NCBI RefSeq assembly: GCF_001660485.1
Contig: NZ_CP013979.1
Coordinates: forward strand, 310,001 to 374,000
DNA: 64,000 bases
Source: Agromyces aureus
Lineage (GTDB): Bacteria > Actinomycetota > Actinomycetes > Actinomycetales > Microbacteriaceae
Reading direction: 5' to 3'
Position 1 is the stretch's first letter, and each line of letters starts with the position of its first letter. Of this stretch, positions 2,869 to 40,808 are shown piece by piece. Below the pieces are notes generated by a model. It saw only the letters and a list, made by a program, of their open reading frames with translations, was not told where the DNA came from and did no database searches. The position numbers were made by a program, and so were the translations under genes.

Positions 2869-2892
2869 TCCGGATGCCGCGCGCAGGCGCGA

Positions 2893-2925
2893 AACGCCCG
2901 GTCGAGCTCAGCTCGACCGGGCGTT
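2893..2925. terminator. Bidirectional terminator
   Basis: A perfect inverted repeat with 16-bp arms (2893-2908 and 2910-2925) around one base sits between the convergent amidase and pgm genes. Each strand reads AA before and TT after the stem, so it can serve both. Confidence 0.85.
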
Positions 2926-2961
2926 GGTCGTTCCGACCGCGGCGCGGGTCTCGTCGGCCGA

Positions 2962-4587
2962 TCAGCCGAGCGCGGAGTCGACGACGCGCTTGGCCTCCTC
3001 CTGCACCTGCGCGAGGTGCTCGGCGCCCTTGAACGACTCGGCGTAGATCTTGTACACGTCTTCGGTGCCGCTGGGGCGCGCCGCGAACCAGGCGTCGGCC
3101 GTCTCGACCTTGACGCCGCCGATGGCCGCACCGTTGCCGGGCGCGTGCGAGAGCTTCGCCGTGATCGGCTGCCCCGCGAGTTCGGTCGCGGCGATCGCGT
3201 CGCCGGTGAGCTTGCCGAGGGCGGCCTTCTGCGCCGGGGTGGCCGCGGCGTCCTTGCGCTCGTAGGCGGGGTCGCCGAAGCGCTCGACGAGCTCCGCGTA
3301 GAGCGCCGACGGCGACGTGCCGGTGACCGCTCGGATCTCGGAGGCGAGCAGGCACAGCAGGATGCCGTCCTTGTCGGTGGTCCAGACCGTGCCGTCGAAC
3401 CGCAGGAACGACGCGCCCGCGCTCTCCTCACCGCCGAACCCGACCGAGCCGTCGACGAGGCCCGGCACGAACCACTTGAACCCGACCGGCACCTCCCAGA
3501 GTCGGCGCCCGAGCGCGGCGGCGACCCGGTCGATCATCGAGCTCGAGACGAGCGTCTTGCCGATCGCGGCATCCGCTCGCCATTCCGGACGGTGCGCGAA
3601 CAGGTACTCGATCGCGACCGCGAGGTAGTGGTTGGGGTTCATCAGGCCGCCGTCGGGCGTGACGATGCCGTGCCGGTCGGCGTCGGCGTCGTTGCCGGTC
3701 AAGATGTCGAAGCTGCTGCCGTGTTCGAGCACCGACGCCATGGCGCTCGGCGACGACGGGTCCATGCGGATCTTGCCGTCCCAGTCGAGCGTCATGAACG
3801 ACCAGGCGGGGTCGACGCGCTCGTTCACGACCGTGAGGTCGAGCCCGTACGTGTCGCGGATCGCGGCCCAGTAGTTGACCGAAGCCCCGCCGAGCGGGTC
3901 GGCGCCGATCTTGATGCCGCTGCGCTTGATGGCCTCGATGTCGATGATGTTCGCGAGGTCGGCGACGTAGGCGGTGCGGAAGTCGTAGGTCTCGACCGCG
4001 CTCGGCTCGGCCTGCTTCACCTCGCGCAGCCCGTCGGCGATGAGCTCGTTGGCCCGGTTCGCGATCCACGACGTCGCGTCGGAGTCTGCGGGGCCGCCGT
4101 GCGGCGGGTTGTACTTGAAGCCGCCGTCCTGCGGCGGGTTGTGCGAGGGCGTGATGACGATGCCGTCGGCCTCGCCCTCGGCGCGCTTGGCCGGATCGTT
4201 GTTCCACGTGAGGATCGCGTGCGACAGGGCGGGCGTCGGCACGTAGTCGTCGTACTGGTCGACGAGCACGCGCACGCGGTTGCCGACGAGCACGTCGAGC
4301 GCCGTCGTCTGCGCCGGTGCGCTCAGCGCGTGCGTGTCGGAGCCGATGAACAGCGGTCCGGTGATGCCCTGCGCCGTGCGGTACTCGACGATCGCCTGCG
4401 TGATCGCGAGGATGTGGTGCTCGTTGAAGCTCGTCGTGAAGCTCGAACCCCGGTGGCCCGAGGTGCCGAACGCGACCCGCTGCTCGGGCACCGAGGCATC
4501 CGGTTGCTGCTCGTAGTACGCCCTGACGAGCGCTTCGACGTCGATGAGATCGGACTCGGTGGCCGGGGTTCCCGCGCGTTCGTGCAT
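2962..4587 (-). CDS. pgm: Phosphoglucomutase (alpha-D-glucose phosphate-specific)
   Basis: The enzyme interconverts glucose 1-phosphate and glucose 6-phosphate in the cytoplasm, linking glycolysis to glycogen and cell-wall sugar synthesis. The 541 residues match the usual length of bacterial Pgm. Near the N-terminus is the [11 protein letters not shown] sugar-phosphate motif. The active-site serine lies in [13 protein letters not shown], the metal loop is [11 protein letters not shown], and a GGEESAG motif is present. The start is the ATG at 4587 (MHERAGTP); the frame stays open upstream, but that part has no family similarity. The gene is convergent with the amidase gene and lies 77 bp downstream of the DUF445 gene on the same strand. 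Confidence 0.95.
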
Positions 4588-8249: not shown

Positions 8250-9118
8250 ACGATCTCGCTCCGTCGGCTGCCACCCGTCAGGTCCATGATCTGCCGGCCG
8301 ATGGCCGACTTGCGCAGCACCGGGTTCTCCCAGCTGATCTTGCGCCAGATGAAGAGCCAGCCCAGGAAGTTGCGTGGCTGCAGCACGGCCATGTCGAGGC
8401 GCCCGTCGTCGAGCTGCGCGTCGGGGATCAGCTCGATGTTGCCCGGCAGGTAGCCGAGGTTCGCCACGAGGATGGTCGAGACCTTCGACCGGTGCAGGCG
8501 GCCGGCATCGGTGCGGTAGTAGGCGCGGTAGGGCTTCGACGCGGGGAGCGCGCGCAGCCCGGCATCGACGTAGGCGAGCCAGCCGACGCGCTTCTTCAGG
8601 TCGGGGTTCGTGCTCGAGATCATCGCCGCGTCGATGCCGATGCCCGCCATGACGAGCGACGTGTGGCTCTCGGTGTCGCCGTTCGGCCGCGTGATGTCGG
8701 CCACGACCACGTCGACGGCGCGGTCGAAGCCCTCGAAGGCGAGCGTCGCGGCCGCGCGCATGTCGTTGACGGGGATGTCGACGTTGCGGGCGAACAGGTT
8801 GCCGGTGCCGATCGGCACGATGCCGACGGGCAGGCCGCTGTCGCGGAGCCCGGCGGCGACCGAGCGCACGGTGCCGTCGCCGCCCGCGGCGATCACGAGG
8901 TCGACCCTCGACTCGCGGGCTTCGAGCGCCATGCCCTTGCCCGGATCGTCGACCGTGGTCTCGATCCAGAGCGGCTCGGCGAAGCCCTGCTGCTCGGCGA
9001 CCGCGGCGATGGTCGTGCGCAGGGTGTCGACGCCCTGCTTGCTCGGGTTGAAGATCACGGCGACGCGCGGCCGGTCGCCCACGGACTCCGCCGCCTGCTG
9101 CTTGCCACCCCGCGCCAC
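8102..9118 (-). CDS. Diacylglycerol/lipid kinase family protein (YegS-like)
   Basis: A 338-residue member of the diacylglycerol kinase catalytic-domain family (YegS/DgkB/BmrU type) that would phosphorylate a membrane lipid with ATP. The nucleotide motif is [16 protein letters not shown] (about 95-110), followed by [14 protein letters not shown], typical of the family. The C-terminal beta domain ends normally. The start is a GTG at 9118. It diverges from serS across about 45 bp. Its 3' end overlaps the convergent small membrane gene by about 148 bp. Lipid specificity cannot be read from sequence. Confidence 0.85.
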
Positions 9119-9150
9119 GGAGCCAACCTATTGCATCGGGATGCCGCGGT

Positions 9151-12940: not shown

Positions 12941-14236
12941 GTGTCAGACGATCGCCAGTTCAGCTCCCGCACCGCCGCCAAGAACCCCGCCATTGCGCGC
13001 CACGGGCGCCTGAAGCCGCATAGCGCCTGGCGCACCGTCGCGAAGGTCACGGCCACCGTCGTCGCCATCGCTCTGGCGTCCAGCACGGCCGTCGTCGCCT
13101 ACGCCGCCTGGGATCTCGCGAGCACGGTGCAGCCGACGGTCAAGCTCGAGAGCGAGAAGGTGCTCGAGGGTGTTCCTGACATCGGGGCGATCGATGGAGG
13201 CGTGAACTTCCTCCTGATTGGCAGTGACAGTCGCGAAGGGCAGGGCGGGGGGTACGGCGATCCCGATGAGGAGACCGCGGTGCTCAACGATGTGACGATG
13301 CTGCTGCACATCGCGCAGGACCACTCGCACGCCGAGGTCGTCAGCTTCCCGCGCGACATGTTCGTGAGCGTGCCCGAGTGCACCGACCCCGAAGACCCGA
13401 CCGGCGACACTCTTTCCGCGCTGTCGAGCGTCAAGATCAACAGCGTGCTGGCTTACGGCGGCATGGACTGCGTGGTCAAGACAGTGTCCGAACTCACCGG
13501 CGTGGTCATCCCGTTCGCGGGCATTGTGCAGTTCAACGGCGTCGCCGCCTTGTCCGAGGCGGTGGGCGGTGTCGAGGTCTGCATCGCGGAGCCCATCCAG
13601 GACGAGCACACGGACCTTGACCTGCCCGCCGGCATGCAGAGCCTCAGCGGCCTGACCGCGCTGCAGTTCCTGCGCACTCGTCACGGAGTCGGCGATGGCA
13701 GCGACCTCGGGCGAATCTCGAACCAGCAAGTGTTCCTGTCAGCGCTCGTTCGCACCCTGCAGAGTTCAGGCACGCTGAGCGACCCCGTCAAACTCTTCGG
13801 TATCGCGAAAGCGGCGCTCGCGAATATGACGCTCTCCGACGCGCTCACCGATCCGGCGAAAATGATCTCGATCGCCAAGGCGCTCAAGGACATCGACCTC
13901 TCCCAGATCGCCTTCATGCAGTATCCGACCGGATCGACCGAAGGCGGGCTGCTGCCATCCGACTCGGCCGAAGTCGTGAATCTCGCGCTGCAGAACGACG
14001 TCCCGGTGTCGTTCGACCCCAACGCGGGCGACACCTCGTTCGCGTCGGTCGCCGATCCGAACGCCGCTGCTCCCGCGCCCGTTGAAGAGGCACCTACCGA
14101 AGGAACGGACGCTGCGCCCACCGACGACGCCGCTGCGGTCCCCGCCGCGACGACCGAAGCGCTTCCGAGCGACGTGTCCGGACAGACGGCCGCCGAGACG
14201 CGTTGCTCCTCGGGCAGGCCCCTCGAGGACCAGTAG
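12941..14236 (+). CDS. LytR-CpsA-Psr family protein, copy 2
   Basis: A 431-residue paralogue of the LCP gene upstream, with the same layout: cytoplasmic N-terminus, one helix (about 40-62), LCP domain with FPRDMFVSVPE and TRHGVGDGSDLGRISNQQ, then a Pro/Ala/Thr tail ending DVSGQ...RCS. Long identical blocks with copy 1 show a tandem duplication. The GTG at 12941 is preferred because GAGAGAGGG sits 4 nt upstream; the frame is open upstream, but that part crosses the tRNA. Third positions are somewhat less GC-rich than in copy 1, so one copy may have been re-imported or is older. The role is wall-polymer attachment, by family. Confidence 0.88.
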   Translation: MSDDRQFSSRTAAKNPAIARHGRLKPHSAWRTVAKVTATVVAIALASSTAVVAYAAWDLASTVQPTVKLESEKVLEGVPDIGAIDGGVNFLLIGSDSREGQGGGYGDPDEETAVLNDVTMLLHIAQDHSHAEVVSFPRDMFVSVPECTDPEDPTGDTLSALSSVKINSVLAYGGMDCVVKTVSELTGVVIPFAGIVQFNGVAALSEAVGGVEVCIAEPIQDEHTDLDLPAGMQSLSGLTALQFLRTRHGVGDGSDLGRISNQQVFLSALVRTLQSSGTLSDPVKLFGIAKAALANMTLSDALTDPAKMISIAKALKDIDLSQIAFMQYPTGSTEGGLLPSDSAEVVNLALQNDVPVSFDPNAGDTSFASVADPNAAAPAPVEEAPTEGTDAAPTDDAAAVPAATTEALPSDVSGQTAAETRCSSGRPLEDQ

Positions 14237-14348
14237 CCGCAGCACGTGACCTTCGACGCCCGGATCTGAGCGACCGAGGAACCGCCGAATCGTGTTTCGC
14301 GGCATCCGCGGGTTATGATGGCAGTCGCGTTCGCGCAAGCGTTCGCGA

Positions 14349-30825: not shown

Positions 30826-31389
30826 TCAGGCCCGAAGCGGATCGCGGGTCCGCCTCGCCTCCGCAGGCCCGGTGCCGACCGAGGGCTCGGCTCGGATCGC
30901 GCGCTCGATCGCGGCGAGGCGCTCCTCGTGGGTGAGGGTCCCGCCGAAGGGGGAATGGCGTCGGAGCTCCCTCCCGAGGACGGACGGCTCGAGCATCGTG
31001 TCGATGAGCGTCTCGATGTCCCCTGAGACGAGTTGCTCCCACAGGTCGAGCCAGCTCCGGGCCAGATCCCGGTTGGTGATCGCACGGAGGCGCTCGATGT
31101 TCTCCATCGCGCGTGCGCGCACGGCGCCGGGGGAGGCGCGGATCCGCTCAGCGACGGCTCGGTGGAGCTCGAGCGCCACCAGGTCGCCGCGGCGAGCGGG
31201 ATCGCATCCGAGGTGGAGACTGAAGCCCATCGCCTCGAGCGCGCGGCTCAGGGTTCCGACCCCGATCGTGCCGTCCCGTTCGGATGCCTCCATGCGGGAG
31301 ATGGTGCTGGTGTTGACGTCGAGGCGCTCCGCGAGATCGCGCATGGTCCAGCCGACGGCGCGGCGCGAATCGGCGATCAGCGTGGACAT
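30826..31389 (-). CDS. XRE-family transcriptional regulator
   Basis: A 187-residue protein with a Cro/CI helix-turn-helix at the N-terminus (about 8-60: MRDLAERLDVNTSTISRMEASERDG, shown by the Q/S-rich recognition helix). A helical C-terminal domain follows with LELHRAVAERIR, ARSWLDLWEQLVSG and RHSPFGGTLTHEERLAAIERA, a pattern I have seen in other XRE proteins of antitoxin type. No toxin gene is adjacent. The ATG is at 31389. It reads in the same direction as the ABC pair upstream but is separated by 202 bp. It may regulate the lanthipeptide locus or be an independent orphan; position alone cannot decide. Confidence 0.75.
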   Translation of the reverse strand: MSTLIADSRRAVGWTMRDLAERLDVNTSTISRMEASERDGTIGVGTLSRALEAMGFSLHLGCDPARRGDLVALELHRAVAERIRASPGAVRARAMENIERLRAITNRDLARSWLDLWEQLVSGDIETLIDTMLEPSVLGRELRRHSPFGGTLTHEERLAAIERAIRAEPSVGTGPAEARRTRDPLRA

Positions 31390-31591: not shown

Positions 31592-32395
31592 CTATTCGAC
31601 GTCACGGTTGCGGAACCCGATGAAGTATCCGAGGACCAGGACCGCCACCGCGTATCCGAGCAGTACCAGCGAACCCTGCCACCAGTCGAGATTGGCGACC
31701 ATCGAACCGTCGAGCGTCGACGGCGGCGGCCAAGCGATGGACATGCTCGCGGACCCGGGCAGGAAGCGACCGAAGGACCGGAACCATTCGTTCTCCCCTG
31801 AGACGGTCGTGAGCACCGGTTCGAGGATGAGCGTGAACGCGAGCACGACGACAATCGCGATCGTCTGGCTCCGCACGAGGAACCCGAGCCCCACTCCGAT
31901 GAGTGCCCAGAGCACGAAGACCAGCGGCGTCCGCAGCACCACGCCGCTCGTCTCAGGGTCGTCGAGGTAGGTCGGCTGGCCGAGAGCGGCGAGCACGCCC
32001 CCGACGGCGATGAGCGCGATGAGCGCACCGATCGCGCCGAAGAAGAGTCCGAAGCCGAGCGCCGTCGACGACTTCGCGATCATCGTCAGCCCGCGAGAGG
32101 GCATCGCCAGGAGGCTGCGGGCGATCGTGCGATGGCGATACTCGGCCGTCACGATCAGCGTCCCGAAGAGCAGCGGAACCAGGTATCCCATCCGGGCCGG
32201 CACGCTGTAGAGGTAGTTCACCGGCAGGCCGCTCGGGTCGCCTCCGCTCGCGGCGATGCCGCCCGCGACGTTGTAGGAGGACAGCACGCTGAAGCCGCCG
32301 AGCACGACGGCCAGCACGATCGCCAGGATCCACCATGCCGGCGTGGTCACGGCCTTGGTGGTCTCGACCCTGAGCTGGTTCGCGAGGTCAGGCAT
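31592..32395 (-). CDS. ABC-2 permease, putative lanthipeptide immunity
   Basis: A 267-residue membrane protein with six helices. It shows the ABC-2 style sequence PVNYLYSVPARMGYLVPLLFG and EYRHRTIARSLLAMP, typical of LanE/LanG-like or NatB-like permeases. ATG 32395 (MPDLANQLRVETTKAV) overlaps the ATPase gene by 8 nt; the longer frame upstream is out of family. It forms a two-gene exporter with the ATPase, divergent from the lanthipeptide precursors. The proposed role is self-protection, by analogy with LanFEG; the usual second permease is missing. Confidence 0.8.
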   Translation of the reverse strand: MPDLANQLRVETTKAVTTPAWWILAIVLAVVLGGFSVLSSYNVAGGIAASGGDPSGLPVNYLYSVPARMGYLVPLLFGTLIVTAEYRHRTIARSLLAMPSRGLTMIAKSSTALGFGLFFGAIGALIALIAVGGVLAALGQPTYLDDPETSGVVLRTPLVFVLWALIGVGLGFLVRSQTIAIVVVLAFTLILEPVLTTVSGENEWFRSFGRFLPGSASMSIAWPPPSTLDGSMVANLDWWQGSLVLLGYAVAVLVLGYFIGFRNRDVE

Positions 32396-33335
32396 GCGCG
32401 AAGCCTCTCTGCTCGGATCCCACCAGGTCGAAGAACATCTCCTCGAGGCTTCGGGAGTACGGCTCGACATGGGTCAGCTGCACGCCCGCCTCGAACGCGA
32501 GACCGGAGATCTCGGAGGTCTCGAGGCCGTGGACCAGGATCCAGCCGCCCTCGCGGACGTCGCATCGGTGGCCCGTCCGCTCGAGCAACGCGAGCAGTTC
32601 CACGTCGGATGGGGTTCGCACCCAGACGGCGGACTCGGTCTCACCTCGCCAGCTGGCCATCGAACCCGATCTCAGGCACGACCCGTGATCGATCACGACG
32701 ACGTCGTCGACGAGGTGGGAGACCTCGTTGAGCATGTGCGAGGAGAGGAGGATCGTCTTGCCGTGGTCGGCCTGGTAGCGGAGGAAGTCCCGCAACCACG
32801 CGATGCCCGCCGGGTCGAGCCCGTTGGTCGGTTCGTCGAGCACCAGCACCGGCGGATCTCCGAGCAGGCATTCGGCGAGCGAGAGCCGCTGCTTCATGCC
32901 CAGCGAATAGCCTCGTACCGGCCGGCGGGCCGACTCGGTGAGGCCGGTCAGCTCGAGCACCTCGTCGACTCGGCCGCGCTCGATCTTCGCGGCCATGGCC
33001 TGGATGCGCAGCTGATCCCGTCCGGACCGCGCCGGGTGGAACCCGTCGGAGTCGAGGGCGGCGCCGACGGTGAGCTTCGGGTTGGGGAGCTCGCCGAACG
33101 TGCGGTCGCCGAACGTGGCCGACCCGGTCGTCGGTCGACACAGGCCGAGGAGGATCCGAAGGGTCGTGGTCTTGCCTGCGCCGTTGGGGCCGAGGAACCC
33201 GGTGATCCGGCCCGGTTCGACGGTGAAGCTGACATCGTCGACCGCCAACCGGCTGCCGAACCTCTTCGAGACATTGCTGACCACGATGGGCGTGGGTACT
33301 GCTGGCGATCTTATTCGATCTGACTGATTTCGCAC
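32388..33335 (-). CDS. ABC transporter ATPase, putative lanthipeptide immunity (LanF-like)
   Basis: A 315-residue ATPase. Walker A is GPNGAGKTTT near residue 48, the signature is YSLGMKQRLSLAE, Walker B is VLVLDEPTNGLDPAG, and the switch His is in LLSSHML. An E-loop is present in place of the usual Q-loop pattern (GLCRPTTGSATFGDRTFGEL), which is a LanF trait but is read here with caution. The C-terminal 70 residues resemble the regulatory extension of bacitracin/lantibiotic exporters. The start is GTG 33335, though an internal start near PIVVSNVSKRF is possible. It is divergent from the precursor genes across 221 bp. Confidence 0.82.
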   Translation of the reverse strand: MRNQSDRIRSPAVPTPIVVSNVSKRFGSRLAVDDVSFTVEPGRITGFLGPNGAGKTTTLRILLGLCRPTTGSATFGDRTFGELPNPKLTVGAALDSDGFHPARSGRDQLRIQAMAAKIERGRVDEVLELTGLTESARRPVRGYSLGMKQRLSLAECLLGDPPVLVLDEPTNGLDPAGIAWLRDFLRYQADHGKTILLSSHMLNEVSHLVDDVVVIDHGSCLRSGSMASWRGETESAVWVRTPSDVELLALLERTGHRCDVREGGWILVHGLETSEISGLAFEAGVQLTHVEPYSRSLEEMFFDLVGSEQRGFAHA

Positions 33336-33435
33336 CGGAATGAGCCCCCAGAACTCGAGTACCTAGCTTGCGTTCTCCCGGAACGTACACGAGCGCGCAT
33401 CGACGGGGCAAGAAGTCCGCGGTACATGCGAAGGG

Positions 33436-33445
33436 GTGCATGCAC
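33436..33445. promoter_or_regulatory. Palindrome GTGCATGCAC in the lanthipeptide promoter
   Basis: A perfect 10-bp palindrome, followed by another GGTGCAT at 33450 and preceded by GTACATGC at 33422. It lies 27-36 bp upstream of the -35 of the precursor operon and so could be an operator or activator site. Confidence 0.45.
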
Positions 33446-33471
33446 TCTGGTGCATCGACTTCACCGATCGC

Positions 33472-33500
33472 TTGAACCGCAGGTTCCCCATCGTTACCGT
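33472..33500 (+). promoter_or_regulatory. Promoter of the lanthipeptide operon
   Basis: TTGAAC (33472-33477) and TACCGT (33495-33500) are separated by an optimal 17 bp. The start site would be near 33507, leaving a 50-nt leader with a GAGGTG ribosome site before GTG 33557. Confidence 0.65.
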
Positions 33501-33556
33501 GTCACCCTGACGGGGGTCAACGGGGCCGCCTGCGTGATCGATAGCGAGGTGTACAA

Positions 33557-33787
33557 GTGACAAGAGCTGTACTCGAGTGGCGAGAGCCACTGGTCCGCGA
33601 GGCGGACGCCACCCACCCATCAGGCATCGTCGAGTTGAGCGACTCCGACATGGAGATGCTCGACGGTGGAACGGGCTGGGCCTGCGCCACGGTGAGCATC
33701 GGAGTCGGCATCTCGCTGGCATGGTGTTCGCCGGGCGGCACGTTCTGCGGTTCGTGCACCTTCGGCACGTCCGGCTGCTGTCGATAG
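33557..33787 (+). CDS. lanA1: Class II lanthipeptide precursor, beta-like peptide (LanA1)
   Basis: A 76-residue precursor. The leader (about 1-38) contains HPSGIVELSDSDMEMLDGG, the acidic ELxxxEM pattern and a double-glycine site for the C39 protease of LanT. The 38-residue core has 6 Cys (43, 57, 64, 67, 74, 75) and 10 Ser/Thr. Its start WACATVSIGVGISL resembles the beta peptides of two-component lantibiotics such as haloduracin beta (WPCATVGVSVAL). The C-terminus SCTFGTSGCCR is richer in Cys than those. The GTG at 33557 has a GAGGTG site. The gene is followed 7 bp later by a second precursor and then LanM. The ring pattern cannot be derived. Confidence 0.85.
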   Translation: MTRAVLEWREPLVREADATHPSGIVELSDSDMEMLDGGTGWACATVSIGVGISLAWCSPGGTFCGSCTFGTSGCCR

Positions 33788-33794
33788 GGGGCCG

Positions 33795-34016
33795 ATGATG
33801 TCTCTCGTGGATTCCTGGAAGGACGCCGACCGAGGTCGAAGCGTCCATCACCCGTCCGGCGTGGTCGACCTGGCCGAGCTCGACGAGCTGGAGATGGACG
33901 ACGCGGCCGGAGTCGGAACCAATCCCCTCGGCACGTTCGGCTGCTGCTGGTGCGTCCCGTGGTGGTCGGGCTTCACCGTGTGCGGTGCCGTCTGCGGAAC
34001 CGTCTGCAAGTGGTAG
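33795..34016 (+). CDS. lanA2: Class II lanthipeptide precursor, second peptide (LanA2)
   Basis: A 73-residue precursor sharing the leader motif HPSG(I/V)V(E/D)L with LanA1, then AELDELEMDDAAG, an AG-type cleavage site aligned to the GG of LanA1. The core (about 34 residues) has 6 Cys (50, 51, 53, 63, 67, 71) but only 5 Ser/Thr, with a CCWC cluster and WWSGFTVCGAVCGTVC. The lipid II binding motif CTxTxEC of known alpha peptides is absent. A faint resemblance to the actagardine/michiganin end (SGW...ECGT.IC) can be drawn. One or more disulfides are likely because Cys exceed dehydratable residues. The start is ATG 33795 or 33798, after AGGGGG. Confidence 0.82.
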   Translation: MMSLVDSWKDADRGRSVHHPSGVVDLAELDELEMDDAAGVGTNPLGTFGCCWCVPWWSGFTVCGAVCGTVCKW

Positions 34017-34086
34017 CACGGCCCGTGGGGGCGGTCGATCAGCGCTGCCCCCATGGGTCGCTTCGAGATCCGAAGGGGAAGAACTG

Positions 34087-37000
34087 ATGATCGAGACCTG
34101 GCGCCTCGCCGAATCGGCGGCCGAGCGGGGGCCCGTCGCGGGCTACGGCGGATCAGACACCGAACTCGCGTCGTTGCGATGGAACCGATGGCAGCAACTG
34201 CCGGTGTTCAGGGACGATCGGCTCAGCCGTGAGGAGAAGGTGGCCCCGCTGGGCGTGACCACCGAAGAACTCCTCGGCCTGCTCGGATCGGTGCCCGCCG
34301 ATGGCGAGGCGGCATCGGAGGGGGCCTGGCCGGACTGGCTGACGTCGTTCCGCGAGCTCTGGACGATCGGCGCCTCCGTCGAAGGCGACGTCGAGGCGGA
34401 CTCCTTCGGCATGTTCGAGGTCGTGCGACCGCTGGTGCTCGGCGCCCAGGCGCAGCTCCGCGAACGACTGCGCGTCAGGAGCGCTCGCAGTGCATGCCCC
34501 GAGGCGCTTGCGAAGAGCCTCGTGCAGGCGCTCGCCTCCGCGCTGCCGGTCAACGACATCTCGTCGGTCTGCAGTCGCACCATGATCCTCGAGGTGAACA
34601 TCGCCCGCGAGGAGGGCTCCCTGTCGGGTGCGACGTCGGAAGAACGCTTCGCGGCATATGTCGAGACGCTGCGCTCGCCGTCGTCCCGGCTCGAGATCCT
34701 GCGCGAATACCCGGTCATGGCCAGGGCCGTCACGGAACGACTGCGCTTCTGGATCGAGCGGAGCACCGACTTCGCGGAGGCCTTCCTCGACGATCTCCCC
34801 GCGATCGCCGATCGCTTCTGGGGCGGGCGCACTCCGAGCTCGCTCCATGTCGAGTTCGGTGGCGGCGACAGCCACCGCGAGGGTCGGTCCGTCGCGATCG
34901 TCGAGACGGATCTCGGGCGTGTGGTCTACAAGCCGCGGCGCAACGATCTCGACCAGGCGTTCGATGCGGTCATCGCGTGGTTCAACTCGACCCATCCCCG
35001 CTACGAGCTGCGAGCGGTGCGCCACGTCGCGAGAGACGATCACGGCTGGTTCGAATTCGTCGACGGCGACGCCGCCACCGACATCGACGGCGCCGACCGG
35101 TACGCCTGGCGGCTCGGCGCGCTCACGGCCCTGCTCCACTTCCTCCGCGCGACCGACTTCCACTACGAGAACATCGTCGCCGTCGGCGACCATCCGATCG
35201 CCGTCGACCTGGAGGCGCTCCTCCACGTCGACAAGGAAGCGGCATCCGTCGGCAACGCCATGGTCCGCAACGTCGCGACCGAGTTCCTGACCGCATCGGT
35301 GTACTCGATCGGGGTACTGCCGACCAAGCTCGTGGCGACCGTCGACGGCAAGGCCGTGATGACCGACATCAGCGCGATCGGAGCGCGCGGCGACCAGAAC
35401 GGGATCATCGCGGTGCCCTTGGTGCATGGCGACGGAACCGACGAGGTGCGCATGGAATCCGGCGTTCCGGTGATGCCCTCGCGGCCGAACTCGCCGAGAG
35501 GCGAGGGCGAGCGATTCAACATCGTCGAACGCGAGTCGGCGTTCACCGAGGGCTTCTCCACCGCCTTCGCGAGCGTGATGGACGGCAAGTCCGACTGGCT
35601 GCGCGAAGGCGGACTCCTCGACGGGTTCCTCGATACCAGGAGCCGGTTCATCTCCCGGCCCACCGCGCTCTACGGCAAGGTCCTGATCGACTCGTATCAT
35701 CCGGACTTCATGCGCGACGCCCTCGACCGGACGATGTGCCTCGGCAAGCTGCTGGGAGGCTATGTCGGCCGACCGGACCGGGCGCAGATGATCCGCGCCG
35801 AGATCGCGGACCTCACGGTCGGCGACATCCCGTTCTTCGAGGTCCGCGCGTCCGACGGCGTGGTGCTCCACGGGCTCGATGATCACGAGGTGGGTCGGCG
35901 AGAGCTCGCCCCCCTTCCTGCGGTGAGGGAGTTCGTGGCTCGCACGAGCCAAGCCGACCTCGCGCCGCAGTTGCGCGTGATCCGCTACACGTTCGCGTCT
36001 GCGCGCATCAGGGAGGGCGACCAGCCGTCGTCGCCTCAGCCGGCCGAGGAGTTCAAGGGGGTCGTCTCGCCCGACGGCAAGCGATCCGCGGCCGTCGAGG
36101 TGGCCGACGCGATCATCGACCTCTCGGTGACCGACGGCGAACAGCGCGGGTGGTTCGGGCTCGGCTTCGTCAGCGAGCGGTGGTGGAATCTGGCGGCGCT
36201 CGGCGTCGACCTCTACTCCGGAACATCGGGTATCGCCATGGCGCTCGCGACCATCGGGGAGTTCCACGCCCCGGCGAGGAAGGTTGCCGTCGAGTTGTTC
36301 GACCAGTTGGCGGAGACCGCCCGATCCGTCTCGACGCTCGCGATGCTCGACGTCGCCCCCGAGAAGCGGACCGGCTTCGACTCCGGCGCGTTCGGCCTGC
36401 TCTCCGGCCTCATCTACGCGCTCTCCCATGGCGCCGTCCGATACGGCGACGACGAACTGCGCGCCGCGGCCGAGGAGCTGATCCCGGCATTGCGGATCCT
36501 CGTCATGGAGGACGCGCACCACGACGTCGTCGCCGGGAACGCCGGTGCGATCCTGAGCCTGCTCAGCCTGGCCGAGGCGGGCGACAGCCCGGATGCACTC
36601 GAACTCTCGCGCCTGTGCGCCACGCAGCTCCTCGCCGCGGCGACCATCGATGGCGACGCGATGTCCTGGCCGTCCGCCTTCAACGCCTCCCCACTCGTCG
36701 GGCTCTCCCACGGGGCGGTCGGCGTGGCACTCGCGCTCAGTCGCCTCCGCGAGCAGATCGGGGATCCCGATGGGGAGTACACCCGCGCGATCGAGGGGGC
36801 GCTGGCATTCGAGCGGCAGCATCACGATCCCTCGACGGGCGACTGGGCCGACCTGAGGGACGAGAGCATCGGTGCGCAGTTCCAGATGCGCGCGTGGTGC
36901 CACGGCAGCCCCGGCGCTGTGCTCGCCCGCGCGGAGCTGCTGGGTTCAGGACTGTCCGAACCCCTCGAGTCGGCCGTCGTCGAGGAGATCGCAGCCGGCG

Positions 37001-37365
37001 TGCGTGCGACCCAGGAATCCATCGGCGTCACGACCGGCCTCCCCTTCGGCCAGGGCAGCGACTGCCTCTGCCATGGCGACATCGGGAACCTCGTCATCGC
37101 CGAGACGGTCGCCAGGACCTGGGGCGAGCGGATCCCCGCGGATCGCGAGGTGCGCGAGCGCGCCTGGTCGGCCATTCTCGCGAGGGCCGAGGAACGGGGC
37201 TGGCAATGCGGCATCCCGAGCGATGCCGAGACCCCCGGACTCATGACGGGACTCAGCGGCATCGCCTGGGGGCTGGCCTTCTCGGCGGATCCCGAGCATG
37301 AGCCGAACATCCTCGCACTCGAAGGTCCGGGCGTGCTGGCGAGGCGGAACGGGCACGGCGAATGA
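34087..37365 (+). CDS. lanM: Class II lanthipeptide synthetase LanM
   Basis: Dehydrates Ser/Thr and closes thioether rings in the precursors. The 1092 residues have the LanM layout: a kinase-like dehydratase (about 150-640; VYKPRRNDLDQAF near 280 and DFHYENIVAVGDHPIAVDLEAL near 357) and a LanC-type cyclase (about 710-1080). The cyclase shows LSHGAVGVALA (His875), the zinc ligand Cys938 in WCHGSPG and Cys995-His996 in CLCHGDIGN. The ATG at 34087 has an AAGGGGAAG site. A single synthetase serves both precursors; known two-component loci often carry two. The stop overlaps the next gene by ATGA. Confidence 0.95.
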   Translation: MIETWRLAESAAERGPVAGYGGSDTELASLRWNRWQQLPVFRDDRLSREEKVAPLGVTTEELLGLLGSVPADGEAASEGAWPDWLTSFRELWTIGASVEGDVEADSFGMFEVVRPLVLGAQAQLRERLRVRSARSACPEALAKSLVQALASALPVNDISSVCSRTMILEVNIAREEGSLSGATSEERFAAYVETLRSPSSRLEILREYPVMARAVTERLRFWIERSTDFAEAFLDDLPAIADRFWGGRTPSSLHVEFGGGDSHREGRSVAIVETDLGRVVYKPRRNDLDQAFDAVIAWFNSTHPRYELRAVRHVARDDHGWFEFVDGDAATDIDGADRYAWRLGALTALLHFLRATDFHYENIVAVGDHPIAVDLEALLHVDKEAASVGNAMVRNVATEFLTASVYSIGVLPTKLVATVDGKAVMTDISAIGARGDQNGIIAVPLVHGDGTDEVRMESGVPVMPSRPNSPRGEGERFNIVERESAFTEGFSTAFASVMDGKSDWLREGGLLDGFLDTRSRFISRPTALYGKVLIDSYHPDFMRDALDRTMCLGKLLGGYVGRPDRAQMIRAEIADLTVGDIPFFEVRASDGVVLHGLDDHEVGRRELAPLPAVREFVARTSQADLAPQLRVIRYTFASARIREGDQPSSPQPAEEFKGVVSPDGKRSAAVEVADAIIDLSVTDGEQRGWFGLGFVSERWWNLAALGVDLYSGTSGIAMALATIGEFHAPARKVAVELFDQLAETARSVSTLAMLDVAPEKRTGFDSGAFGLLSGLIYALSHGAVRYGDDELRAAAEELIPALRILVMEDAHHDVVAGNAGAILSLLSLAEAGDSPDALELSRLCATQLLAAATIDGDAMSWPSAFNASPLVGLSHGAVGVALALSRLREQIGDPDGEYTRAIEGALAFERQHHDPSTGDWADLRDESIGAQFQMRAWCHGSPGAVLARAELLGSGLSEPLESAVVEEIAAGVRATQESIGVTTGLPFGQGSDCLCHGDIGNLVIAETVARTWGERIPADREVRERAWSAILARAEERGWQCGIPSDAETPGLMTGLSGIAWGLAFSADPEHEPNILALEGPGVLARRNGHGE

Positions 37366-37772
37366 CGGTGACGCCCCTCGCGACGCCCGGGATCGTCGAC
37401 TTCGAGCTCAGGATCCATCGCCGATGGATCGTCGCCGCGGCCCTCGCCCTCACGGCGTGCGGGCTGTATCTCAGCATGATGCCGATGGCGACGAGCGCCC
37501 AGGTGGCCATCATCGCCGCGCACGACGAGCGGATCAGGTTCGGCGGACTGCAACTGCCTCACGTCGAACCCGACGACGAGATCGGCCTGACCACCTCCGT
37601 CGGGTCGTTCCGGGGCCGGGTGCTCTCGACCTCGCCGATTCCGGACTCGAACGCGATCGAGGTCACGATCCGCCTCGAGGACCGCCCGTCCACGCTGCCC
37701 GAACTCGGCTCCTCGGCGATCGCGAAGTTCCCCGAACAGCCCTTCATCCAGGTTCTGGTGCAACGACGATGA
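37362..37772 (+). CDS. Short HlyD-like membrane-anchored protein
   Basis: A 136-residue protein coupled by 4-nt overlaps to lanM before it and lanT after it. One transmembrane helix (about 22-42; WIVAAALALTACGLYLSM) is followed by about 90 extracytoplasmic residues, IGLTTSVGSFRGRVLSTSP and IEVTIRLEDRPSTLPELGSSA. These resemble the last beta-barrel part of HlyD-type adaptor proteins, but the coiled-coil and lipoyl parts are missing. I infer that it is an accessory of LanT. A reduced adaptor or an immunity protein are both possible. No close family is recognised. Confidence 0.7.
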   Translation: MTVTPLATPGIVDFELRIHRRWIVAAALALTACGLYLSMMPMATSAQVAIIAAHDERIRFGGLQLPHVEPDDEIGLTTSVGSFRGRVLSTSPIPDSNAIEVTIRLEDRPSTLPELGSSAIAKFPEQPFIQVLVQRR

Positions 37773-39928
37773 CCGAACCTCGGCGTCGGCCGCGCAAGAT
37801 CCGAGCGGTCGTCCAGTCGACCGTTGCCGAGTGCGGGCCCGCGTGCCTGGCGATGGTCGCGACCGCGCTCGGCCGCTACACCTCCATCCGCGAGATCCGC
37901 GGTCAGATCGATACGGGTCGAGATGGCGCCAGCATGCGCCAGCTGGCCGAATTCGCCCGCTCCAACGGCTTCGATGCGCGCGCGTACCGGGTCCAGTCCG
38001 CCGAGGACCTGACGCAGGTTCCGCTGCCCGCGATCTCTCCGTGGAAGCGCAGCCACTTCGTCGTGGTCGAGCGCCTGGATCGTGACTCGGTCAGCATCGT
38101 CGACCCTGCACTCGGGCGTTCGTCGGTCACGCCCGAGGAGTTCTGGGAGGACTTCGGCCGTGCGGCCCTCGTCCTGACCCCGAACGAGTCCTTCGTGCGG
38201 GTGCCGAGGCCGCCGTTGAACTTCCTGAGGTTCGTGCGCCCGTACATTCCGCGGTCGCCGTTCCGCATCGGGGCGATCGCCGTCCTGGCGCTGCTCCTGT
38301 TCGGGCTCGTGCTCGTTCCGCCGGCGATCATGCAGTACATCTTCGACAGCGTGATCCCGGGCGACGAGCCATCGGCGCTCGGGCCGATCCTCTTCGGCGT
38401 GGCGCTGCTCGGGGTCGCCTACCTCGCCTCGTTCCTCGTGAGGTCCGAGCTGCTCCTGTGGCTCGAGACGAGGCTCGACGCCTCCCTCATGGGCGACTTC
38501 CTGCAGCATCTGCTCGCACTGCCGTACAAGTACTTCCAGGTTCGGCAATTGGGCGACATCCTCGTGCGCGTCTCGAGCACCGCCTACGTTCGCGACGTCC
38601 TGAGCAGCCGACTGCTCTCGCTGATGATCGACTCGCTCTTCGTGATCGGGTACGTGTTCGTCATCTCGTTGCAGTCCACGGCGCTCGCGCTCGTGGTTCT
38701 CGTCATCGCGGCGATCCAGATCGCCGTCGTCCTGTCTGCGACGCGGCGGGCGCAGGCGCTCACCGAGCGCGAGCTCGCCGAGATGTCGAACGCGCAGAGC
38801 GTCCTGCTCGAGACCGTGAGCGGGATCGAGATGGTCAAGAGCACCGGCCTCGAGGACGAGGCGCTTCGGCGCTGGTCCGTCGACTTCACGAAGCAGCTGC
38901 AGGCGTCGGTGGGTCGGCGGCGACTCGACAACCTCGTCTCAGGACTTCTCGCGGGGGTCGGCTACCTCACCCCGGTCCTCTTCCTCATCGTCGCGTCGGT
39001 GTTCGTGCTGACGCGGGAGATCACGGTCGGGCAAGCCGTGAGCCTCAACGTGCTCGCCGGAGCGGCCCTCGCTCCGATCGCGGCGCTCGGGGCTGCCCTG
39101 CAGTCGCTCCTGACCGCGAGGGTCCATCTCGAGCGGTTGCGCGACATCCTCGACGAGCCGAGCGAGGAGGTGGGCGCAGACCTGCCGCCGGCCGAGATCT
39201 CCGGCGCGGTGCAGGTCTCGGGGGTGAGCTTCGCCTACGGCTCCAACACATCGAACGTGCTCGAGGACGTGAGCTTCGACGTGAGGCCGGGCGAGTTCAT
39301 CGCGATCATCGGGCCGAGCGGATCGGGCAAGAGCACGCTGGCGAGGGTGCTCGTCGGACTCCTGAGACCGACCGAGGGCACGGTCGGGTTCGACGGCACC
39401 GGGCTCGGAAGCATGAACCTGCGCAGCGTGCGCAAGCAGCTCGGCATCGTCACCCAGGCGTCCGATGCGGTGAGCGGCACCTTGCGCTCGAACATCCGGT
39501 TCGGTCGTCTGTGGATCACCGACGAGGCCGTCGTGCACGCGGCGACGATGGCGGGCCTCGCGGGCGACATCTCGCGCATGCCCCTCGGTCTGGAGACGCC
39601 GCTCGGTGAGGCGGGCCTCGGTCTCTCGGGCGGTCAGCTGCAACGCTTGGCGATCGCTCGAGCCGTCGCCGCGTCGCCCCGCATCCTGCTGATGGACGAG
39701 GCGACCAGCCACCTCGACGCGCGAACCGAGTACGAGGTCTGCCGCAACCTGGCGACGCTGGAATGCACGCGAGTGGTCATCGCGCACCGCCTGAGCACGA
39801 TCGTCGACGCCGACCGCATCCTCTACCTCCAGAACGGACGGGTCGAGCTCATGGGCCGGCACGACGAGCTGCTCTCCGAGCCCGGGTACGCCGACTTCTT
39901 CGCCCGACAGTCCTCCGCACTAGCCTGA
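37769..39928 (+). CDS. lanT: Peptidase-containing ABC exporter LanT
   Basis: Cleaves the leader and exports the mature peptides. The 719 residues have the classic order. The C39 protease (about 8-140) has catalytic Cys22 in AECGPACLA, His96 and Asp112. Six transmembrane helices run about 165-455. The ATPase (about 490-719) has Walker A GPSGSGKST, the signature LSGGQLQRLAIARA, Walker B ILLMDEATSHLD and the H-loop VIAHRLST. The start is ATG 37769, overlapping the upstream stop. The double-glycine sites of LanA1 and LanA2 suit this protease. Confidence 0.95.
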   Translation: MTEPRRRPRKIRAVVQSTVAECGPACLAMVATALGRYTSIREIRGQIDTGRDGASMRQLAEFARSNGFDARAYRVQSAEDLTQVPLPAISPWKRSHFVVVERLDRDSVSIVDPALGRSSVTPEEFWEDFGRAALVLTPNESFVRVPRPPLNFLRFVRPYIPRSPFRIGAIAVLALLLFGLVLVPPAIMQYIFDSVIPGDEPSALGPILFGVALLGVAYLASFLVRSELLLWLETRLDASLMGDFLQHLLALPYKYFQVRQLGDILVRVSSTAYVRDVLSSRLLSLMIDSLFVIGYVFVISLQSTALALVVLVIAAIQIAVVLSATRRAQALTERELAEMSNAQSVLLETVSGIEMVKSTGLEDEALRRWSVDFTKQLQASVGRRRLDNLVSGLLAGVGYLTPVLFLIVASVFVLTREITVGQAVSLNVLAGAALAPIAALGAALQSLLTARVHLERLRDILDEPSEEVGADLPPAEISGAVQVSGVSFAYGSNTSNVLEDVSFDVRPGEFIAIIGPSGSGKSTLARVLVGLLRPTEGTVGFDGTGLGSMNLRSVRKQLGIVTQASDAVSGTLRSNIRFGRLWITDEAVVHAATMAGLAGDISRMPLGLETPLGEAGLGLSGGQLQRLAIARAVAASPRILLMDEATSHLDARTEYEVCRNLATLECTRVVIAHRLSTIVDADRILYLQNGRVELMGRHDELLSEPGYADFFARQSSALA

Positions 39929-39959
39929 AGATCGAGAAGCCGACTGAATGGAGCAGCAC

Positions 39960-40136
39960 ATGATCAAGCCGATCGAGATCGTCATCGTGGCGGTCGCAAT
40001 CCTCGGATTCGTCGCGAACGCGGTGCTGTTCGGGGCAGCGCCGTTCACCTACCTGTTCTGGGTGGTCGCCATTCTCGCGCTCGTACCCGGGTGCGTGCGA
40101 TGGGTGCGCGCACGACGGGCCGCATCGAGGGAGTGA
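39960..40136 (+). CDS. 58-aa two-helix protein closing the lanthipeptide locus
   Basis: A small, mostly hydrophobic protein: helix 1 about 4-24 (IEIVIVAVAILGFVANAVLFG), helix 2 about 29-47, then a basic tail RWVRARRAASRE. The start is ATG 39960, 6 nt after GGAG; an ATG at 39948 is less well placed. TAGCCT in the last codons of lanT (39921-39926) may be its own -10. It lies 31 bp after lanT, so it could be a LanI-type immunity peptide. It could also be an unrelated small membrane protein. No homologue is recognised. Confidence 0.6.
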   Translation: MIKPIEIVIVAVAILGFVANAVLFGAAPFTYLFWVVAILALVPGCVRWVRARRAASRE

Positions 40137-40703: not shown

Positions 40704-40776
40704 GCGCCCGTAGCTCAACGGATAGAGCATCTGACTACGGATCAGAAGGTTGGGGGTTCGAATCCCTCCGGGCGCA
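40704..40776 (+). tRNA. tRNA-Arg (anticodon ACG)
   Basis: The acceptor stem GCGCCCG pairs with CGGGCGC, discriminator A. The anticodon loop is CTACGGA with ACG (read as ICG), and the T-loop is GGTTCGAATCC. The 73-nt gene is preceded by TAGAGT at 40644-40649 and followed by a terminator. Confidence 0.96.
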
Positions 40777-40808
40777 CTTGCATTGCAAGAGAACTGGTTG
40801 AGACAGTA

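Follow-up and report, generated by a model that had tools for sequence, protein, structure and literature searches.

A 64,000-nucleotide stretch of the Agromyces aureus genome (contig NZ_CP013979.1, positions 310,001 to 374,000; hereafter the window) holds, on its forward strand at 33557-39928, a coupled locus of two lanthipeptide precursor genes, a CHG-type LanM synthetase, a small protein and an exporter with a C39 peptidase. The positions of these open reading frames (ORFs), taken from an ORF list and from inspection of the sequence, agree with a preliminary description of the same DNA, which had proposed a complete two-component class II lanthipeptide cluster of an actinobacterium. The cluster does look complete. 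Its first gene, lanA1 (33557..33787, GTG start), encodes a precursor of 76 amino acids with a leader ending in MLDGG; the GG site and the alignment with relatives predict the core TGWACATVSIGVGISLAWCSPGGTFCGSCTFGTSGCCR (33671..33784; 38 residues with 6 Cys and 10 Ser/Thr). The second, lanA2 (33795..34016, with another ATG at 33798), encodes a precursor of 72-73 amino acids whose leader ends near MDDAAGV. From the alignment of relatives and the numbering of the roseocin alpha peptide (Ros-alpha), its core is predicted as VGTNPLGTFGCCWCVPWWSGFTVCGAVCGTVCKW (33912..34013; 6 Cys, 5 Ser/Thr), where the first residue may be G, V or an earlier G because the leader ends in AAGV. The common leader motif noted in the preliminary description was seen, as HPSGIVEL in LanA1 and HPSGVVDL in LanA2.

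Roseocin of Streptomyces roseosporus, with the precursors RosA1 (beta) and RosA2 (alpha) and the synthetase RosM, belongs to type 2 of its family, in which a single promiscuous CHG LanM acts on two precursors; the family motifs are S/TxxxxTxGCC at the N-terminal end of alpha and GS/TxxxxS/TxGCC at the C-terminal end of beta (PMC10027976). Both signatures are present in the window, the alpha motif at the start of the LanA2 core (TNPLGTFGCC) and the beta motif at the end of the LanA1 core (GSCTFGTSGCC). LanA1 had previously been taken for a beta peptide, and its C-terminal signature bears this out. No other member of the 359 window ORFs of 45-150 amino acids matched either motif. Among 93 other loci (1.58 Mb, 8794 ORFs), 31 ORFs matched, 30 of which appeared precursor-like by eye; the remaining one was cyanobacterial, with the motif at most 18 residues from its start. 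These 93 loci overlap in part and are not an independent background, since each was fetched on account of a LanM. Over 200,000 shuffles of the core residues, 505 recreated the alpha motif and 39 the beta motif at the C-terminus.

Conservation extends beyond the motifs. With the window left out of the column definition, the window peptides keep every residue that is invariant among ten alpha relatives (13 columns, including T7, GCC, C13, PW, S18, T21, C23, C27 and the last Cys) and among ten beta relatives (14 columns). The alpha and beta core profiles matched each other with a probability of 13%, and the GTxGCC unit was all that they had in common. Ring and disulfide residues of Ros-alpha have been mapped by mass spectrometry (PMC10027976). 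We used the alpha core of S. rubiginosohelvolus (locus L074) as Ros-alpha because it fits the positions printed in that paper: SGVLGTLGCC (Ser2-Cys11), Ser12, Cys13, SGWTVCGLAC (Ser18-Cys27) and Cys33. Every ring and disulfide residue is present in the window alpha, namely S/T2, T7, C10, C11, C13, S18, T21, C23, C27 and the last Cys.

LanM (34087..37365, 1092 amino acids) was assigned to the CHG-type class II synthetases by TIGR03897 (674 bits, cut-off 304), by structural homologues and by its place in a tree. It contains the Pfam domains DUF4135 and LANC_like and aligns with LicM2 (6st5, E 3.4e-93) and CylM (5dzt, E 2.5e-37). Its WCHG and CHG motifs (C938, C995 and H996, with CHG at 995-997) are invariant in 12 aligned LanMs, as are K282, R284, D357, H359, N362, R524 and T526. 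We take these to be the zinc-site and dehydratase residues known from work on CylM, in which case the zinc ligands listed in the preliminary description are all in place. The whole genome yielded a single LanM match. One LanM for two precursors is not a new arrangement: it is known from roseocin type 2 and from cytolysin, carnolysin and bicereucin (PMC10027976).

LanT (37769..39928, 719 amino acids) comprises the Pfam domains Peptidase_C39 (3e-30), ABC_membrane and ABC_tran. The N-terminal part can be aligned with solved double-glycine peptidases; against the C39 domain 6mpz, a Cys, a His and an Asp fall in corresponding columns, in line with the C39 protease noted in the preliminary description. 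The protein is 42-47% identical to the LanT of the 10 loci with an alpha/beta pair that we compared. Between lanM and lanT, and absent from the preliminary description, an ORF for 136 amino acids (37362..37772, forward strand) overlaps each neighbour by 4 nt. The encoded protein displays one hydrophobic stretch near its N-terminus by eye and matched neither a Pfam family nor, at a BLAST threshold of 1e-3, any protein in the relatives' loci. In 7 of 10 relatives, this position is likewise occupied by an ORF; an export accessory is a possible role.

We then compared the locus with those of other bacteria. Three alpha homologues (86, 60 and 52% identity) and two beta homologues (82 and 74%) were detected. 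The LanM search, in which only the 8000 candidates with the most words in common were scored, returned the protein itself, two at 78%, one at 50%, and then Georgenia (42%), Streptomyces (40%) and Ornithinicoccus (40%). A scan of genome contigs with this LanM as single query gave no match; with an alignment of 12 LanMs, it gave 78 distinct loci (the best of 142). Motif-bearing ORFs were found in 18 of 150 loci scanned, corresponding to 14 distinct genomes when G985 and L075 are counted as one. In 11 of the 14, the window included, beta and alpha adjoin, always with beta first; L061, L087 and L106 do not have such a pair. The order beta-alpha-LanM-LanT is common to the window and its relatives, and the Streptomyces roseocin-type loci have in addition an ATP-binding cassette (ABC) transporter homologous to one in the window.

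The LanM tree comprised 35 hand-chosen sequences; RosM itself (WP_010071701.1) was left out, and its S. rubiginosohelvolus homologue served as stand-in. The window LanM fell into a 99/99 clade of 19 rows that holds Streptomyces, Glycomyces, Nonomuraea and Micrococcales members and includes all 9 rows with a verified alpha/beta pair; the other ten rows are database proteins with unread flanks. Within it, the window belongs to a 100/100 subclade of 11 together with Georgenia, Cryobacterium, Ornithinicoccus and Pseudopropionibacterium. L106 and P0051 sit on very long branches. In L106 (Streptomyces sp. CB02056), a LanM-like gene is also followed by five consecutive short precursor-like ORFs (13188-14282) that carry roseocin-like GCC motifs, an expanded multi-precursor array. 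In L087, a metagenome-assembled genome of Gemmatimonas (Gemmatimonadota), two precursor-like ORFs with roseocin motifs (2876-3178 and 8713-9135) flank LanM and LanT; this phylum lies outside the one to which the roseocin family is assigned in PMC10027976.

Counting the window's own protein, LanM matches at E <= 0.001 occurred in 4 of 299 genomes of the family, 20 of 396 of the order and 40 of 394 of the class. Matches other than its own were 24-41% identical, and many covered part of the protein. Within the genus, 2 of 60 genomes matched, the window's own and a partial one at 27% identity; the locus is therefore rare in the genus. The host RpoB is 94-98% identical to that of two genomes of the same genus, 88% to that of one genome of the same family and 69-75% to those of the other seven. 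With 89% to that of Cryobacterium sp. Y57, these values put the host close to Cryobacterium, within Microbacteriaceae. Nevertheless, the Cryobacterium LanM is only 37% identical to that of the window, which fits transfer or old divergence.

The range 33557-39928 given for the locus by the preliminary description is probably too short on the left, where a likely immunity ABC transporter lies on the reverse strand. Its membrane subunit (31592..32395) starts with an ATG at 32395 that overlaps the end of the gene for the ATP-binding subunit (32388..33335), which diverges from lanA1. The permease matched no Pfam family, and BLASTP aligned it at 25-38% identity with the permease that follows LanT in 9 of the 10 roseocin-type loci examined. 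The ATPase is 41-53% identical to the ATPase at the same place in 9 of 10 relatives, where other ABC ATPases reach 26-34%; its best NCBIfam match is the lantibiotic protection ATPase TIGR03740 (180 bits, below the cut-off of 310). In those 9 of the 10 pair-bearing loci, the homologous ABC genes lie within about 650 nt downstream of LanT. L061 and L087, which have no alpha/beta pair, gave weak ATPase matches only in the same comparison. Judged by these similarities, the divergent transporter is probably an immunity pump.

The gene content, the motifs, the conserved residues, the phylogeny of LanM and the synteny were established here, and we consider it very likely that the locus is a roseocin-family type 2 two-component lantibiotic cluster in Microbacteriaceae, in which the LanM modifies both peptides, alpha and beta act together and the ABC pair protects the producer. 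The ring pattern, synergy and immunity of this reading are drawn from roseocin. LanM would use the related leaders of LanA1 and LanA2, dehydrate Ser and Thr residues and add Cys to them. The alpha product would then carry four thioether rings, an overlapping pair in T2-C11 and another two in S18-C27, along with a disulfide between C13 and C31 (in the numbering of Ros-alpha, with Thr29 as an extra residue). The beta product would have up to six thioether rings and the GSCTFGTSGCC unit at its end. The C39 domain of LanT would remove the leaders and the transporter export both peptides, perhaps together with the 136-residue protein. Outside the cell, alpha and beta may jointly hit competing Gram-positive bacteria, from which activity the divergent ABC transporter would shield its host.

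Several observations weigh against this assignment. Neither precursor reaches the 23.5 bits required by TIGR03898, the lantibiotic model of NCBIfam (their scores are 17.9 and 15.2), and no Pfam family is matched by either; TIGR03898 does match 10 of the 11 sequences in each precursor alignment, with the window's match below the cut-off, and the NHLP leader model TIGR03793 weakly matches 3 of 11 beta sequences, the window's not among them. The alpha leader ends in AAGV in the window and in P0001 versus GA in 8 of 11 aligned alphas (AGG in P0003). Moreover, relatives carry the ABC pair on the other side of the cluster and on the opposite strand, and in Glycomyces salinus (L097) the stretch compared contains none. 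A scan of the divergent region 33336..33556 recognized neither a sigma-70-like promoter nor a terminator. Finally, taken as a label, the alpha/beta pair did not cluster significantly on the LanM tree: it needs 7 changes, and 99 of the 500 shuffles needed no more, which we ascribe to the ten unlabelled rows in the clade.

For the alpha peptide of this Microbacteriaceae branch, a topological variant of roseocin may also be considered. In such a variant, a fifth thioether ring at Thr29 would replace the C13-C31 disulfide, and the alpha leader would be cut at AAGV, which is neither GG nor GA, so that one LanT would accept two cleavage sites. We regard this arrangement as unlikely, if worth bearing in mind. 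Thr29 stands two residues before the last Cys and is also found in P0001; L104, L097 and L059 have a Thr near the last Cys.

The two peptides might also be made by the same LanM and yet act separately, as independent bacteriocins or as signals without antibiotic function, and LanMs with several substrates indeed need not yield synergistic pairs. However, alpha and beta adjoin with beta first in every one of the 11 genomes with a pair, and roseocin, which carries the same motifs, is synergistic (PMC10027976). Separate action is thus improbable in our view. We give still less credit to a decayed or silent cluster retained by chance. The two matching genomes among 60 of the genus and the missing promoter would suit decay, as would the near relative P0005, in which the first core Cys of beta is lost, but every frame of the window locus is intact, the starts overlap and conserved residues are retained, and both motifs persist in relatives that are 78% (LanM), 82% (beta) and 86% (alpha) identical.

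Least probable of all, to the point of being hardly tenable, is a two-component lantibiotic of the lacticin 3147/haloduracin type that has lost one LanM. Such systems, like lichenicidin, share class II chemistry and an alpha/beta pair with the window but have two LanMs and, in most alphas, a lipid II motif (PMC10027976); the window's genome has one LanM. A weak match of LanA1 to TIGR03893, the family of lichenicidin A2, at an E value of 0.017 that does not pass the cut-off, and matches of 2 of 11 beta sequences to the LchA2 family NF038161, again below cut-off, speak for this type. Against it, LanA2 is devoid of the CTxTxD/EC motif, and the tree places the LanM within the roseocin clade and away from its firmicute members. 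When core profiles were compared, beta matched a small set of four lacticin-type beta cores with a probability of 0.9%, and alpha matched the same set with 0.4%. A common ancestry of the window beta with lacticin/lichenicidin-type betas, which the weak model matches and the WxCATV segment pointed out in the preliminary description had suggested, is therefore not supported by these few cores; that likeness is weak.

The locus shares with roseocin one CHG LanM for two precursors, conserved leaders with diverse cores, both motifs, an alpha with 6 Cys and a C39 LanT. The preliminary description had held that the pair matches no known lantibiotic and had named close identity to a published one as what would speak against this. 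By both motifs, LanM clade and gene order, the pair does belong to a known family. Of 33 alpha core positions, 20 agree with the S. rubiginosohelvolus stand-in once a two-residue gap is placed by hand; the beta core is 55% and LanM 40% identical to the counterparts there. This partial core identity makes the pair a clear roseocin homologue and not the same compound. The window alpha differs by natural F8 and W12, the extra Thr29, a shorter spacing before the last Cys and the AAGV leader end, the beta core has 38 versus 33 residues, and the ABC pair is divergent and upstream. Cryobacterium sp. Y57 (L077) and Pseudopropionibacterium massiliense (L076) likewise combine an alpha/beta pair with LanM, LanT and an ABC pair, but their LanMs are 37-40% identical to that of the window, and the Cryobacterium beta is without the second Cys of CSPxGTxC. 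Cytolysin, carnolysin and bicereucin share the single CHG LanM for two peptides (PMC10027976) but come from Firmicutes.

The surroundings of the cluster offer further observations. The intergenic region 33336..33556 is the presumed control region from its position between divergent genes alone, and an inverted-repeat scan of it found none. In the order-mate G348 (L059:12192-14827), a small membrane protein and, by eye, a response regulator with a membrane kinase are encoded directly before the precursors, a place that the ABC pair takes in the window. An XRE-type regulator (HTH_3; 30826-31389, reverse strand) adjoins the ABC pair and could regulate the locus. Downstream, a small membrane protein of 62 amino acids (39948..40136, forward strand) is of uncertain membership, which would follow from position alone; it gave weak model matches below cut-off, and BLASTP detected no counterpart in the 12 related loci compared. 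A tRNA-Arg (acg) gene lies directly downstream of the cluster at 40704-40777. Genes for tRNAs are common integration sites.

In 2023, roseocin was described as the only case from actinobacteria in which a single LanM serves two precursors, and its precursors were said to have no homology to known two-component lantibiotics (PMC10027976); birimositide, another actinobacterial two-component lantibiotic, is of the lacticin type (PMC7268733). We found no report on a two-component lanthipeptide in Microbacteriaceae in the open literature. Cryobacterium is not named in the main text of PMC10027976, the supplements of which list family members and may include this locus or a near relative. The locus looks like a new roseocin relative in Microbacteriaceae with small variations, not a new kind of system. 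At 55-61% core identity, it offers naturally occurring substitutions for testing which residues of the cores are important. In Ros-alpha, the single change L8F lowered the minimal inhibitory concentration against S. aureus four-fold and S12W raised it, both leaving that against M. luteus unchanged (PMC10027976); the window alpha naturally carries F8, the beneficial residue, and W12, which as a single change gave no help. Its LanM, 40% identical to a Streptomyces enzyme with equivalent substrates alongside, may be informative on how one CHG enzyme recognizes two cores.

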